Shown here piece by piece: positions 55,415 through 64,000 of a stretch of 64,000 nucleotides of DNA (its first letter is position 1; each line of letters opens with the position of its first letter). The notes beneath the pieces are model-generated. The model saw only the letters and a list, made by a program, of their open reading frames with translations, was not told the DNA's origin and made no database searches. The translations under genes were made by a program, and so were the position numbers. The DNA is from Isoetes taiwanensis (Eukaryota > Streptophyta > Lycopodiopsida > Isoetales > Isoetaceae). The stretch is from assembly GCA_021234155.1 (NCBI GenBank), contig JAJEKV010000124.1, positions 930,001-994,000 on the forward strand. The letters are read 5' to 3'.

Positions 55415-57985
55415 TTACTTGTCTTGTCTAGTCCTCTTCTTTGACTGGGGCGTGAGTTTCTGCTTGGGTTTCAGGGGGGAGGGGGGTGTGGGTCTGCTAC
55501 CTGACAGTTGACCTTGACCCTTCCCCTGTGTTATATATAGAAATAGTCCAGTGCCTGGCTGCATAGGACTAACACTCCCCTCCACCAAAGAACACTCGAA
55601 GGAGAGAAAAGCAGGAACAGTTTCTGGAGGTGGAAAACCTGGCACTTTATCAAAATCATCCTGACGACTATGAGGACCTGAGTGAGACTTTTGGATAAGA
55701 TCCTGTCGATCTGTCAAGGCATCCACAGTATTGACCCCAATGGATGGTGACACGTCGATCAGAAAGCCAGACTGCGCCATGTCTTCAAAAGCACGGCGGG
55801 CCTCGGCTGGAACATACTGGCATTCAATGAGCAGACCAGTCTGGAGGCCAAAAGCATCGGCACTGGCGTTGGGGTTTCAATAATAAACAGCACGATGGCG
55901 GGCAATAGAATAGGTAAGAAGACACTTCAAAACAGCACAAAAACCTGTCTGCCGATGAACAGATGGATCAGGGGACGTTGCAGCTCTTTCCAAAAATTGA
56001 GTGAGTCCCCAGACATCATTATTTGGGGTCTGCCAATCTCGCTCATTAGGAATATAGATCCAATTTTTGTTATGATCCAAGGTTTCTCCTTTCTGCTAGA
56101 CGTTGCGACGCACAAAGCGTGGATCCCACTTGAGGTCTGTAGAAATCAGCATGACCAGCCAGAGCCTTGGTCCAAAAAGATGAGCGCCAATCAGAAGTAA
56201 GAAACTGATGCCATGGAGGTGTTCCCAATGACGCATAAGGAGTATCACGTTGAGGAGCAGGATGCATCATCAGCCACTGAGCTTGAGTGCAGAATTCTTG
56301 AAGTAAGTCGGTGTCCAGGGTTTGACACCAACATTCCCAGTCTGGACAAGGAAGAAGTGTATTGATAGAAGAAGGGACCGATTCCAGAGGAATGATCTGA
56401 CCGTCGATATAGACACGAAGACTGTTGAAGGTGCCTAAGTTTGCAAGTAGAGTTGAGCGAACTCAATCCCCATTTCCTCATACATGTGTTTACGAACTTG
56501 CTGCAAAGTTTCTGCAATCTAGAGGGGCAAGTTTCCAGCCAGCTCGGGCATGTACTCGACCTGAAGAGCATTAATCCATGATCGATCCTAGGATATTTAT
56601 TGTCCTGCTAAAGTAGCCAGCTGGCGTGAGTATCCCCTTTAAACTTATCCTGTGTGTTCGCTAGATAGAAATCATGCATGACATAAGCCATTGGCTGGAC
56701 AAGACGAAGAATGAAGAAATCTTTGTCATCACAGGGGATGAGCTAAAAGGTAAGGAGAGCATAAAGAAGGCCTTTGTCTTCTATAGAAAGATCCGGCCAC
56801 AGAATCAACAAATCCTTGATAGTGGGGTTCTCTTGAAGAGCTCCATTAGCATTAAACCATTTGAGCAGAAAGAGATGTCTGCAGGACTGAACATATAGTC
56901 CAAATACCTCATGGAGTTTGGGAACTCACCAAGGATGCGGATAGCTAAGGCGATGTAAGTCTCATGCTATTGATGAGCATCATCGGCAGACTGAATTGCC
57001 TGTTTCAACTGATGTTCCAGATCATGGATTCTGTTGTCTTTCTCAATAATGAGACGGAGTTGTTCCATGATCTTGCAGTGAGGATGCATGGTATGTGAAG
57101 ACGAGGGACCTTGAGTGGAGACCTGTAACTGGAGACTAGCAATCTCAGCGTCATCCATGATCTTCTGTTTTTGCATGTCACTGAGCTGCGCTAGCAATTT
57201 TGTAACCTGAGTTTAAACTGCTGCTAACTGTCCTTCCAAAACAGTAATACGTATTTCACCCTGTGTGTTGGTATATTGTTGACGGGTGTATTCATTCTGT
57301 AATCCTGTGTAGAGAGCTTGTGTATCAACAAGAAGTTTGTCCTTGTCCTTGATCATTGTAGGAAGCTCAGTGATGGTAGCCCGGAGTTCGGCTTGTTGTT
57401 CTTCCACGTCGCTTGTTTCTTAAGGAGTTCATCCTGTGTCTCCAACAAGGCACTATGTTTAGTCTAAAGGTTTTCTTCGAAAGCCCGGTTCTGAGCATGG
57501 GCAGTCTGAAGATCACGCCTCAATGCGTCAATGGAATCCAGATAGTTTTTAATGCCATTCATGAGGTGACCTTGAGATTCTTGTAGCATGAGCATGCAGT
57601 TGGCCACATTCTCTTCATATTTATACAGGGCTCTTCTGGATGGTGGAGGGATAATCGGCAGGACAGACAAAGGAGGCTATGGGATGATGTGCGTAGACGC
57701 GTGGGAAACGTGACCAGAGGTGGAGACATCAGCGTGAGTGTGACGTTGATGACTTTAGAAGGAGAGGGGTGCGCGTCTGGCTGAGTGGTGGTTGCTGAGA
57801 AGGTTGAGCCTCGGGGCGTGGCCGAGAGGTTTCTTCTTGAAGTTCACGAACAGGTCGGATGACGGAATAGGTGCGACTGGAAGCTTGAGAGATAGCATCT
57901 AAGTGTCTGGTGGAGAGGGTAAAAGCACGCTGTGGTGTTCCAATTCGGCTGTCCCCCCTGTCCCCCCAAAATGTGGCGTTGCATC
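55415..57985 (-). pseudogene. Degenerate coiled-coil protein of unknown family
   Basis: Reading the - strand: SRIGTPQRAFTLSTRHLDAI (about 57950-57890); a Pro/Gln-rich stretch; ANCMLMLQESQGHLMNGIKN and ALRRDLQTAHAQNRAFEENL (57470-57610); ELLKKQ; EEQQAELRATITELPTMIKD (about 57400); LLAQLSDMQKQKIMDDAEIA (about 57190); then less regular sequence; and an open C-terminal 121 codons (55415-55780) ending KPKQKLTPQSKKRTRQDK. Heptad-like Leu/Gln/Glu spacing across about 57000-57600 indicates a long coiled coil. Stops and frame changes are frequent. It may be a retroelement gag-like protein or a repeated plant gene family; no protease, reverse transcriptase or integrase is adjacent, so I leave it unassigned. 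Confidence 0.5.
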
Positions 57986-58429
57986 CACCACTTTTGTGGT
58001 ATGAAAGTATAATTATGGCACCGCTCAGCTGCCGTTATTTAAGAATAGAGTCCCAATTTGTGGGGAAAATTCTAATTTCAAAAACTAAAATTCAAATTCA
58101 AATTCCTATTCTTTGGCCCCTTCCTGTTCTTTGCCTACATCCTGTTCTTTGGCTCCCTCCCTGCCGCAAGCTCCAATCCATTGTGGATATGGATGTCAAT
58201 GAGTAATCTGTCCACAAACCGGCATTTCAGACAGGAGAAAACGAAGAAGAACCAAGGAACAAGAAATGTTGAAGAAAAGACGCCAGAGGAAAAGAAGAAG
58301 AGAGGAAAAATTGGAGCTTGCAGAATTGGCAGAAGGATCCGGTTCATCAAGAAGTGCAAGCGATGCGCCCGTATTGTCCTTAATTTGCTAACGTCTTTCC
58401 ATAAACAGACCAAAAGAATGGAGGATAGC

Positions 58430-58930
58430 ACGAAGAAAGAAATTTTACTTGAGTTTTTGAGGGATAAAACATTGGAAAAATTCATAGGTGAAGAGTTAAA
58501 GGATTTGGAAGCCAAGAGCATCGTTATAAGGAGCCTCTGGGACTCCATGCAGACTATCAAACTCTCTACCAGCAATGACCGCCTAGCGACCAAGAATAGC
58601 TGCCTTGCAATACCAGACCCGCCGTGCGGATTCTGAAACAAGTGACAAAATCAGCCCGTGAGATCTTGGAAAGGTATTAGGTGTTCACCCAAGAAACCGC
58701 AAAAGGCAAAAAAAAAGAGGGAAGAGATCGATTACAATGGTGGGAAATGGGTTTCTTACAAGAGGGCTAAAAGATTCGATGCAATTTCGGATGAACATAT
58801 AGAAAAAGATTCAAAAATTTTGGATTGAGAACACGAGAGTGTCTCTAACCCAAAGGATGTTAGAACTAGAAGATTGAGAGAAATGTAAGAGAAGAACATG
58901 GTGCCCACTATCCGGAGGAATCACAGGTTA
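58430..58930 (+). pseudogene. Basic/acidic coding remnant upstream of the DDE-like gene
   Basis: One frame reads RMEDSTKKEILLEFLRDKTL, EKFIGEELKDLEAKSIVIRS and LWDSMQTIKLSTSNDRLATK. After a gap another continues KKREEIDYNGGKWVSYKRAK, RFDAISDEHIEKDSKILD with a stop, and KDVRTRRLREM. It lies on the same strand as, and about 1.8 kb before, the DDE-transposase-like exon. It could be that gene's N-terminal, DNA-binding part, since related proteins have a charged N-terminus. Stops within it suggest decay. Confidence 0.4.
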
Positions 58931-59323
58931 GTTTATTTTACATTATTCATGTTTTCTTAGTTATGGTGCTTAGTGTGGTGGTGCATGTGGTGGTTATTGT
59001 GTGATTGATTGTGGTGTCTTGTATGCGACATGTGAATTGTGTGTAGTTGACTCTAGTCCGAAATGCAATATTTAATATTTGGAATATTATTAGAACATGA
59101 CAGAATTGAGTACTCCTTTCTTTGGGTGTGTGTACAGTCTAAAAATATTTGAGATGATAACTAAGCGATCCCGAAATACAAATTTTTGTTGAATAAAGAT
59201 AATTTTTGTCGATTCAAACCATGACTACTGTTGGAAAGTATGATATATTAAAAAAGGATCTTACAAAATTTGGGTTTACAAAATTTGGCTTTCCATTGAA
59301 AGCTCTGTACCCGAGAACTAAAT

Positions 59324-59867
59324 TTACATGCATGATTTCCTAAGCAACAGGAAATTTGGTATGGTAGCTCGAGAACTGGTGCATCTAAAATTATTGTTTT
59401 TCGCACTAAAGCATCTAAGCTTTTCTGCAGTCATCCCGAAATTTAACGGGATGAGGTTTGCCAGTGCTTCCTGCATCCCCTGGTGGTAAGTACGCAATTC
59501 TGCCAGTAAAACCCGCTGTTGCAGAGTCAGAGCGGACAAGTGACAGAGAACAAATATACCAGCTGCCCTTGCAGCAGCATGTAACATACTCATGGACCTT
59601 GTCTAAGAGCTCTCTTCCTGTCAATCTGACTCCAAGCATAGCCATTGAAGGCCCAGCATCCAGTCTGTTGTATGCCTTTAGATTGGATTCGAAATCAGCA
59701 AAGAAGGTGGATTTAGGCATATCCACCTTCAGAGATTGATCACGAGCCCTGTTTAACATGTGCCGAATGCCCTCCTCACTCACCTTACAATAGCCGTAGT
59801 GATCTCTGAACATCCCTCCTACCATGTTGCCGGAATGAACTTGTTCGAATTTGGAATGAAACGCCAA
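59324..59867 (-). CDS. Unidentified coding-looking ORF, 150 aa, alternative frame downstream
   Basis: The frame (59415-59867) reads FHSKFEQVHSGNMVGGMFRD, HYGYCKVSEEGIRHMLNRAR, LKVDMPKSTFFADFESNLKA and MAMLGVRLTGRELLDKVHEY. After that an overlapping frame (59324-59593) gives LQQRVLLAELRTYHQGMQEA and LANLIPLNFG. Either frame may be the true end, implying a frameshift at about 59590. The mix of residues looks like a real soluble protein, but I do not recognise the family. It lies antisense between the two parts of the DDE-like locus. Confidence 0.4.
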
Positions 59868-60011
59868 AAACCAGACGTAGGAACAGGATTTAGGACCCAG
59901 ATCCTTTTCTAATGATTAGAAGAGGACTGTAATTATTATCAGGGTGTACGAATTTCAGAAGTGTTTATGAGAGCAGGCTAGGCAGATTTTTTATGTCAGA
60001 CGAAATAGGAT

Positions 60012-60740
60012 AAAAGTGATGTGATGTGATGTGTGGTGTCGTGATGGTGTGGTGTGGTGTGGTGTGGTGTGGTGTGGTGTGGGTTGCGTTATGTCCATGG
60101 TGTCATGTGGGTGTGTGCATGTTAATGTATGATATGTGTGGATTCAATTTTATTTATTCTCCCCCCTCACCCCACCACACCCCATCATCTATCCCACCAC
60201 CATAGACTACCACCACATCTTTGCGACCACCACATTACCACCACATGCACACACATCCCACCACATCCCACGCCACACCCCTCCACCACCACCACCACAC
60301 TCCACCACCACCACACTTCACCATCAACACACTCAACACACCACACCCCTCCACCACCACCACCACACTCCACCACACCACATCACACCACAATCCACAA
60401 CACCACACCACACCACCACCACTACACCCCCCACCACACACCACCACCACCACCACACCCCACCACACCACATCATACCACCACACACCACTACACACAC
60501 CACCACCACCACGCCCCACCACCACACCACACACCACTCCACCACACTCCACCACCACCACCCCCCACCACCACCACACTCCACCACCACTCCACACTCC
60601 ACCATTTGGTGTATGGTGTGTGGTGAATGTGGGGGGTGGTGTGGTGTGTGGTAATGTACACAGCACTAAGGTGCTCGTTCTGGTGAATATGATGAGTGTG
60701 GGGCATGGTATGGTGCATGGTTTGGTGTGATATACACATC
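60012..60740. repeat. Strand-asymmetric GTGTG / CCACCA simple-repeat block
   Basis: 60015-60120 is rich in GTGTG and GATGT units. 60165-60605 is almost pure C, A and T on the + strand, made of CCACCA and CACACC units. 60605-60740 switches back to GTG-rich sequence. The flanking GT-rich parts can pair with the central AC-rich part, so hairpins are possible. Long open frames in all registers (His/Thr/Pro-rich on +, Trp/Cys/Val/Gly-rich on -) are by-products of the repeat. It ends about 30 bp before a splice acceptor at 60768. Confidence 0.9.
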
Positions 60741-60768
60741 CTAACAGTTTAGTGTTCATTTCATGCAG

Positions 60769-62643
60769 ATGCTATTGTTCAAGAGGTTTCTGGACCAACA
60801 TCCAGAAATTAAGATTCGTCTTCGAGCTTTTGAGAAGCTAAAACCCTGGTTTGTTGTGAAATTGAAGGACTTCAATAGTTGTTGTTGCATTCAGCACGTG
60901 AGGATGCAAATGCTAGTGGATGGACTCAATGGGATGAGAACCAAACATCCGAAGAATTGCACTTGCACCTGCGATGTTTGTAGATCACATGAACTTGGTC
61001 AATGCAGGGCACACCAGCATAAAATTGCAAGTACAGGAAGCTTATGGAGATCTATATTGTGTCCAAAGAGTGAATTAGATGAGTTTCACAAGAAGGCGTG
61101 CATCCTTGAAAATTGTGAGCTGTGTGGAATCAAGAAGTTTCAGACCTGTCCCATGGAAGGAAGTGGCAGTAGGAAAGTGAAATGGGAGTACATTGACTAT
61201 GAAAAAGACAATGTCTCGAGTTCTGGTAGGAGACTGACTCATCAGTACAATGAGACAGAACCCAAGGAGCTTCTGGATAAACTGAAAGAGCGTCTAAAAA
61301 TCTTTCCACTGCATAATTTCAGGTACCAATGGCAGGCAAAACAGTTTAAGGAGCTTCTGGAGAATCTCCCAACAGATGCATGTCTCTCAGTAGTGGATTT
61401 TGCAGAGAACTATACATTCAAGGAACAAGAGGAGGTGCAGTCGATGCGCTGGGTCAATAACCAGATTACCATTTTGGTTCAAATAACATATCAGTATGAC
61501 TCAGTGGCAGATGAGATTATCAAGGAAACACATTACTATATATCAGATGATAGGGAACACGATACTTTGTTCGTGCAACACTGCTTCATGAAGCACCACA
61601 AATATCTGGAGCAGAAAGGAAGGGTGCCAAAGAGACATTATGTGTTTTCAGATGGTGCATCATCTCAATTCAAGGCTTCTAGACCATTTTACTTTGTGCT
61701 AGGTACACAAACGACACTGATGTCTATATGATGTGGAATTTTTTTGGTTCTAACCATGGGAAAGGTGAATACGATGGCAAAGCTGCTGAGTTGAAGAGAT
61801 GGTTAAGACAACTGCAATTAAAATACAGCAGCATAAAATTGAGTAATGCTCATGAAGTGGTAGAAGTTGCCGAAGAGATGTTTGCTTTGTGGAACATCCA
61901 GAAAGTGGATGAACACATCTGAAACCAAGAAGAGGAAGAATATAAAAAGGTTCTTTTGGGAAGTCAAGGTGGAGGATATAGATAGAAAGAAAGCATGGGG
62001 TGCGAGAAAGGATTTTGGACACTAGGCGGATCCATTGTGTACATGCATTCAATCCACGAATCTCCATTGCGGTTGCACGAGGGAACTTTCATGCTTCTGC
62101 AGCTACTGCTTGGATGGCATGTGGGTCAGTTGTGTGAACAAGCACTACGTTGATGATTGGAAACTTCAAGTTATTGTACCATCTTCCAATGTGCATGCTG
62201 ACATTGAGGACCGTAAATCCAGCAGGTCCTTGTTCTCCTCCAATCCCACGATGTTAGCAGAGGCACTTAGAGTTGGTGATAATTTTGCTGTCATTGCTCC
62301 GAAAGGGAATGATGAGGGTTCTGAATTTTGGATTCTGATGTGCACAAAACCAAAATGGATAGTGGAGAAAGACTTCCATTTCAATGGAACATGGTACCTC
62401 GCCGGTGATAGTGTCATAGAAGGTATGTATTACAAGAAGGGCGCAAGATCAACCGTCAGCTATGATCTTTGTAGTAAAGACGCCTTAGGCATAGTATTCA
62501 CAACACAGATCTGTGCAATCAGACTTCACATGCCACCAACTAAACGTCAAAACAGGATCAGTATATATAGTTTGGATCCTTTAGATGAGGAGAAAATTTT
62601 TCTGAAATTTACCCAAGTTCTTTTCGATGATGATGAAATGTAA
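60769..62643 (+). pseudogene. Cys-rich DDE-transposase-like protein of an animal-type family
   Basis: The exon begins after acceptor TTTCATGCAG. Order of motifs: LFKRFLDQHPEIKIRLRAFE and KPWFVVKLKDFNSCCCIQHV; a cysteine cluster CTCTCDVC...C, then CILENCELCGIKKFQTCP; a putative catalytic core SVVDFAENYTFKEQEEVQS (first D), HYVFSDGASSQFKASRPFYF (second D) and WNFFGSNHGKGEYDG (third acidic residue); then a Cys-rich segment CFCSYCLDGMWVSCVNK and a C-terminal domain LRVGDNFAVIAP...WYLAGDSVIEGMYYKKG ending at 62641. Large uncharacterised animal families share the 'DFAENY...SDG..SQ(F/Y)K...WNFF..(S/N)HGKG..DG' pattern. One base is missing at about 61697, and further shifts lie at about 61915-62035, so this copy is broken. 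The function is inferred from motif spacing only. Confidence 0.7.
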
Positions 62644-63572
62644 AAACCATTCACGTAGTTTTCAGAACTCATGTGAAGTTTTGTGCTTTAGCTGTGAAAA
62701 TGAGTTTGTCTTGATTTCTTTTGAAGATTTGAATTCTTCTGAAACACTTGATTCCTTTGTTTGTGAGATGAATTGAATATGAATTTTCATTGAAATGAAT
62801 CGAGGTTACAATAACAATTATGTACATAAGAAAGATATCTGATGATTTAAAATACGAGGTGACTCATGCACCTACATACTTCCCAATACATATGTTCCTC
62901 GGTTCCGGCTTTTGTTGCTTCTAATCTTAAAACTTCAAGCATGAACACTCTAACATCAACTAGATCCTGGTGCGAAATGTCCACAACTGCGAGTTAACCA
63001 CACTTTGTCAATAACCGAGTTTGGTTTGTCTGTACATTTAAGTTGACTTACTAGATCGGGCAACAATATATTCACTCCTTTCAAGTACCCCCTCACAAGT
63101 TTGTGCATAAACGAACATACGGCGAGGGAATACATGAATGACCATCGGTTTGAAGAGGCGTTCGGAAATTTTCACAACATCTGAGGTTGTAAAGCTGAAA
63201 TTATTGTGTCCAAGCAATTCCAGGAACCTGCACTCAAAGTTTGTTGTCATTGTGCCACAATAGCAAAATGCAATGAGCAAGCACTAACCTCTCAATATGT
63301 CTGCTTCTGCCATGCAAGCCCGAGCTATCAAAGTGATATATCCCCGGTTTATATCTGCATGCGAGACACGCGTGGCTTACAATCGAAAACAGGTCCGATG
63401 ATGTCCATCACAAGGGGCAAAAAACATGTCGCGGCACTTATCCAGATTCACATGTTTCCTTATTGTTTTGTAACTATTTGTGTCCTTGGACAATGTCCTT
63501 GGACACTCAGCAGCTTTGCCATCTTAGATTTTTCTTAGATTTGAAGTTGCATGAATCTGTTTTATATTGCAG
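62644..63572. other. Non-coding spacer or intron within the DDE-like locus
   Basis: No recognised coding sequence. It separates the broken first copy of the C-terminal domain from a second copy and ends at splice acceptor TTTATATTGCAG (63561-63572). The short frames at 63038-63280 (-) and 63206-63538 (+) have no known motif. Confidence 0.45.
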
Positions 63573-64000
63573 GTTCTTTTGGCATATTGATCCCCAAAGT
63601 GTAGACAAATCTGAAAGGAAGGAGTGGAAAACACTATGTGGGAGCTCTAAACTTCATTGCATCAGACCATGTGACAAAAAGAACCCTGCAAAAGTTGCTT
63701 ACAGGTGCCTCTCTTGCTATTGTTCCTACTGCTTTCATGGTAAAAGGGATGATTGCACGAACAAAGCACGTTTGGGAGCATGGCTCACAGCAGAACTGAA
63801 ACCAAAGATGAATTCTATTGCTGGAGAAACATCCACAGCAATTAGTCAGGGGGAAGAAGAAGAAGATGAAGAAGAAGAAGATGAAGAAGTAGATTACCTT
63901 AGTTCTCTTCTAGAAGTTGGAGATAACTTTGCTGTAAATGCACATCCAGAACATGATGAGAGAGTTGACTTTTATGTTCTTAGGTGTACAGGAACTAAAC
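63573..64000 (+). CDS. Second copy of the DDE-like protein's C-terminal domain, cut by the window
   Basis: From the acceptor the frame is open to the end: FFWHIDPQSVDKSERKEWKT, LHCIRPCDKK, then RCLSCYCSYCFHGKRDDCTN, a Glu/Asp-rich linker (about 63847-63890), then LEVGDNFAVNAHPEHDERVD and FYVLRCTGTK. It aligns with 61965-62345 of the upstream copy (FFWEVKVEDIDR, SCFCSYCLDGMWVSCVNK, LRVGDNFAVIAP, FWILMCTKPK). The shared pattern is a C-x-C-x2-C zinc-finger-like cluster followed by a small beta-rich domain. This copy shows no break so far and may be the 3' part of an intact gene continuing beyond 64000. Confidence 0.65.

Follow-up and report, generated by a model that had tools for sequence, protein, structure and literature searches.

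The window analysed here, a stretch of 64,000 nucleotides of Isoetes taiwanensis DNA to which all positions given without a locus name refer, carries in its right-hand part what is very probably a dead member of a large DNA transposon family of autonomous type. As a whole, the observations are best explained, we are fairly sure, by a transposon family that combines a DDE/D-type transposase with a phosphatase. Intact members most likely encode a transposase of ~850-870 aa from two exons. Its basic N-terminal region would bind DNA and its Cys/His region zinc; a putative RNase H-like core with three Asp would cut at the inverted repeats, GGGTAAAAG, and insert the element with 4-bp staggered cuts, movement presumably being of the cut-and-paste kind; the predicted C-terminal part is Cys-rich and has a VGDNFAV domain. 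The NIF/FCP1-like phosphatase is encoded on the other strand of the same element, and any role assigned to it is conjectural.

Ends and copies of the element

The left end of the element is the terminal inverted repeat GGGTAAAAGCACGCTGTGGTGT at 57917-57938 (forward strand): when copies are aligned together with their flanks, four of them are alike from exactly position 57917, and the DNA outside is unrelated. At the right end, which was read in three copies, designated L013, L014 and L016, the sequence stands inverted, as ...ACACCACAGCGTGCTTTTACCC (mutated in L014). L013 has its inverted repeats and a duplication, GCAT; a target-site duplication was not found at the ends of L014. The terminal pattern GGGTAAAAGCACGCTGTGGTG, allowed up to 2 mismatches, matches the assembly (1,658,258,908 bases in 1,110 contigs) at 741 places, 369 forward and 372 reverse, while the reversed control gives 0 and 0. 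The assembly also contains a chloroplast-type rbcL. Facing pairs of the pattern lie at least 9.5 kb apart among the places listed; the element measures roughly 9-10 kb and is present in hundreds of copies. Ten elements were cut at both ends, having been picked for an exact match of the pattern at each, which makes them a best-preserved sample; the duplication was not a criterion of choice. Perfect inverted repeats were found in every one of the ten, and so was a perfect 4-bp target-site duplication (AAAA, TTAT, CATG, CAGT, AAAG, AAGA, CATG, ACGT, TACT and TTCA). The exact ends and the length of the duplication are usable for annotating the element.

The initial annotation, made from the window sequence, had proposed that a DNA transposon family is present in this plant lineage; the element is indeed such a transposon and is multi-copy, with inverted repeats and target-site duplications. 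It had also suggested looking past the window for terminal inverted repeats, and repeats are indeed what the ends of other genomic copies consist of. The contrary case that it had named, a single-copy host gene whose ends lack repeats, is at variance with a sequence that is multi-copy, has repeats at its ends and lies at unrelated sites. The left end of the element at L056 (position 2681 of that locus) resembles that of the main family. This left end falls within an LTR retrotransposon, in a gag-like ORF (L056:1861-2739), and the element has thus inserted into another transposon. The 10 kb examined did not include a recognisable right end, and a search for terminal inverted repeats in L057 found none.

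The transposase gene

Transposase exon 1 (58189-58926, forward strand) is frameshifted in the window and was recognised because it matches, in tblastn, exon 1 of L056, which is open; its start codon was placed by reading the sequence and comparing it with copies that are open. The donor GT is at 58927, and its context is kept in each of the 3 other copies whose alignment spans it. The product of this exon is the basic N-terminal region, which would likely bind DNA. The intron (58927-60768, forward strand) contains CCA/TGG-type simple repeats and ends in the acceptor TGCAG (60764-60768). Eight copies align at 60769; seven of them have TGCAG there and one reads TGCGG. The feature outlined in the initial annotation began at 60769, which proves to be the first base past this acceptor. 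The splice signals point to joining of exon 1 to exon 2, and the intron is supported by the homologous protein of L108, described below, because that protein is a single uninterrupted ORF across the junction. Two other features of the intron may be recorded. Long simple repeats of CCA/CCACAC type fill 60150-60610, and about 5-6 kb beyond this point other copies have a similar repeat, inverted. An open frame of 166 codons (59415-59915, minus strand) has relatives in most copies and is without a Pfam match.

Exon 2 (60769-62643, forward strand) is broken in the window, whereas intact versions of 616-622 aa exist elsewhere: it is open from 60769 to 61728, changes frame after 61674, has a stop at 61920-61922 and changes frame again before 62026, from where the last open piece runs to 62643. 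Most copies of the family are likewise broken; intact exon-2 ORFs of 622 aa and 616 aa do exist in the genome, in L056 and L057. For this one pair dN/dS is 0.11 over 616 codons, the synonymous sites of other pairs being saturated, so that the value comes from L056/L057; as judged from this pair, the intact transposase ORFs are under purifying selection. Matches within the genome span 46-100% identity, and several families must therefore be present.

Conserved motifs and a distant homologue

The motif set described in the initial annotation lies, in the order given there, at 60880-62292, all of it on the forward strand. CCCIQH (60880-60897) is followed by a Cys cluster of putative zinc ligands, CILENCELCG (61099-61128), whose Cys columns are common with L108. 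The first conserved Asp (61396-61398) is in DFAENY (61396-61413), the second (61651-61653) in SDGASSQFK (61648-61674) and the third (61773-61775) in HGKGEYDG, part of WNFFGSNHGKGEYDG (61734-61778), which in the window is in a different frame from the preceding motifs; all three are invariant in the alignment, designated A4, of the intact plant proteins with the L108 protein. A second Cys cluster, LSCFCSYCLDGMWVSC (62086-62133), is common to the plant families in A4 and is not aligned with L108. VGDNFAV, the motif of the C-terminal domain, is at 62272-62292 and again, also as annotated, at 63916-63936. These motifs are not a product of chance, because the scored candidates in the genome include ~40 copies of the 1-kb core, 92-100% identical, and the protein segment has 134 scored matches in the same genome.

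A DNA pattern for HGKG-DG-KR was found at 42 loci, of which L108 alone is homologous to the transposase by profile search (73.2 bits, E 2.4e-22, 252 six-frame sequences searched). L108 is JAAEPJ010000558.1, a 4-kb contig with the record title 'MAG: bacterium isolate Cli_8'; it may, we believe, be animal DNA in a bacterial bin. Searches of viral and prokaryotic contig collections with back-translated patterns found no relatives. The L108 protein shares with the plant transposase the three Asp, SDD-H, Q-F-K, HGKG-DG-KR and a set of Cys/His ligands, all invariant in A4, and it differs in being a 690-aa product of one uninterrupted ORF without an intron, in having a different C-terminal domain and in its overall identity of 23-25% with the intact plant copies; its host is only putative. 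The positions of the conserved aspartates are those expected for the acidic residues of a DDE/D enzyme, as the initial annotation had anticipated; the three are probably catalytic, and the Cys/His clusters would bind zinc. Such proteins are known from animals, as the initial annotation too had it. The link that the words 'animal-type' imply is tentative, depending as it does on one homologous protein from a record with a bacterial MAG title and on this background. Short repeats of the type GTGTTGGACGTACA surround the 690-aa ORF (L108:1-4028) and are possibly subterminal repeats of that element.

Predicted fold of the core

The structure model computed from the L108 core and rows of the window is of low quality (mean pLDDT 41.9, pTM 0.33). 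It predicts a strand at 189-197 containing the first Asp (195), two further strands, a helix, a strand at 269-274 with the second Asp immediately after it (275), another helix, a short strand and a helix at 314-331 that contains the third Asp (316). This order of strands and helices would be that of RNase H-like enzymes, with Asp placed where the expected strands end, which is supportive, not conclusive. Foldseek returned no match to the model at E <= 0.001; among its weak matches are RNase H-like chains and chains of actin-like ATPases. With VIA-align 2, residues 183-292 of the low-confidence model could be superposed on chains of Argonaute/PIWI and retroviral integrase as well as on RNase H-related and actin-like ones, at best with Z up to 7.8 and an rmsd of 3.2 over 93 residues; according to the tool, a Z below 8 can reflect a common arrangement. 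In one such superposition, on the integrase chain 6u8q_K, model residues 187-290 fall on 56-132, and the first Asp would come to lie near integrase D64, as judged from the range ends. The likeness to retroviral integrase and other RNase H-like nucleases is thus one of predicted fold, below the level at which chance is excluded, and no sequence similarity to them was detected. An RNase H fold for the transposase core is supported but inconclusive.

A second family joined at position 63497

The 9-kb family stops, and a different one starts, at a sharp breakpoint, 63497/63498; five other copies carry on with another sequence at the same base. Beyond the breakpoint lies a C-terminal exon (63571-64000, forward strand) that belongs to another transposase family, related to the first; it is open to the end of the window and reaches its stop 251 bases further on. 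This exon matches the profile of the first family, and its own family numbers, by a rough count, 5717 first-look candidates in the genome. The joining of this second family at 63497 is the reason that the C-terminal domain appears twice. The initial annotation, which saw one broken and one intact copy, was right that there are two; the second belongs to a different, related family. A tandem duplication of the domain was considered and dropped, since the breakpoint and the second family's own copies rule it out.

A phosphatase and other genes carried by the element

Downstream of the transposase gene, on the minus strand and pointing towards it, the element has a gene for a NIF/FCP1-like phosphatase. 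In family 1 it matches PF03031 at 4.7e-17 (62.6 bits, cut-off 21.8) and UBLCP1 weakly; it differs from UBLCP1 and other NIF/FCP1-like phosphatases in being carried by a transposon and in the LDFNGVL that takes the place of DxD. Sequence matching the phosphatase is present in 8 of the 8 other copies examined, one of which is a short end piece only. The initial annotation, for all that its motif set held good, had missed this gene, as it had exon 1 upstream and the true left end at 57917. The second family has a phosphatase gene too, past the window on the minus strand (L009:5915-6640): it is 35% identical to that of family 1 and matches PF03031 at 6.3e-14 (52.4 bits, cut-off 21.8). Comparison of at least 86 second-family-exon places with at least 120 NIF-domain places genome-wide yielded 5 transposase/NIF pairs within 6 kb, every one of them convergent, against 0.07 expected by chance. 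A NIF/FCP1-type gene convergent to the transposase gene is thus a property of at least two families; among 14 places of the L056-type family no such NIF pair was found within 6 kb. A rough count gives 3263 first-look candidates for NIF-domain matches in the genome, with a large group at ~70-80 bits that may be mostly transposon-borne. Among the papers listed by literature searches there was no account of this family or of a NIF-carrying transposon.

Whether the phosphatase is catalytically competent is doubtful, to judge from its DxD position. The copies of it that were read do not have an intact DxD: in L013 and L016, among the few family 1 copies examined, the position reads LDFNGVL, without the second Asp, so that the family 1 phosphatase may be inactive. 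A short minus-strand frame downstream in L056 has FELDGVL and resembles, by eye, the start of a NIF domain; it has no NIF match in Pfam. In both families the NIF frame is adjoined by a coiled-coil frame whose end is RING-like in its Cys/His residues (in the second family a Cys/His-rich one, at L009:7524-8267, after the NIF frame), and the similarity of the coiled-coil frames between families is weak (E 0.018). The right part of L013, L014 and L016 has an additional minus-strand frame near the right end (TLMESELNATGY...), common to these copies and without a Pfam match.

Classification

Neither the plant transposase nor the L108 protein has a match in Pfam, a sequence search of the PDB found no credible relative, PHROGs gave no match, and none of the papers listed by literature searches contained the HGKG motif. 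Membership of no catalogued superfamily, to which these results of the Pfam, PDB and literature searches would point, is a reading that we hold only tentatively: Pfam is without several transposon superfamilies, and a name may already exist, since such proteins are known from animals. The best lead to a name is Sola2. In Sola2-type elements the duplications are of 4 bp, the inverted repeats measure 12-21 bp, the transposase has 888 aa and extra genes have been captured (PMC3627910); Sola groups occur in bivalves also (PMC10294476). The element is like them in its 4-bp duplication, short inverted repeats, transposase of ~900 aa and additional captured genes. Even so, that the element represents a plant branch within Sola2, a group of the Sola superfamily, and thus already catalogued, is possible and somewhat short of an even bet. 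The published Sola2 duplications are AT-rich (PMC3627910), whereas those of the element vary (CATG, CAGT, ACGT, TACT) and are not AT-restricted; the extra gene is for a NIF-type phosphatase here and for Fanzor1 in Sola2; and the comparison is by description, not sequence, with a 4-bp duplication that many superfamilies could share.

An element that carries several genes might also be moved by some other transposase, the gene described above being a passenger. This is very improbable: that gene alone has DDE-like conserved acidic residues, it is under purifying selection, and its homologue in L108 is a single ORF without the element's other genes on that 4-kb contig. The intact ORFs of some copies would likewise suit a domesticated or ordinary host gene family, but the hundreds of termini, the duplications that accompany them at sites unrelated to one another and the broken state of most copies leave that reading next to no probability. 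The account that we favour remains a transposon family with its own DDE/D-type transposase and a phosphatase. Going beyond it, one may picture a superfamily without a catalogued name, common to a lycophyte and a distant lineage, with a plant branch in which a standing second gene, convergent to that of the transposase and coding for a coiled-coil/RING plus NIF-type (pseudo)phosphatase, is kept across ~50%-diverged families, its product perhaps acting on host transcription or silencing; in its entirety that picture is unlikely, if worth stating.

Significance

Lycophytes are a branch of plants whose transposons have been sparsely curated, and the map of a lycophyte genome now gains a large transposon group, part of which is still intact. 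That a phosphatase gene is kept convergent across diverged families suggests that a protein of the element may act on the host.
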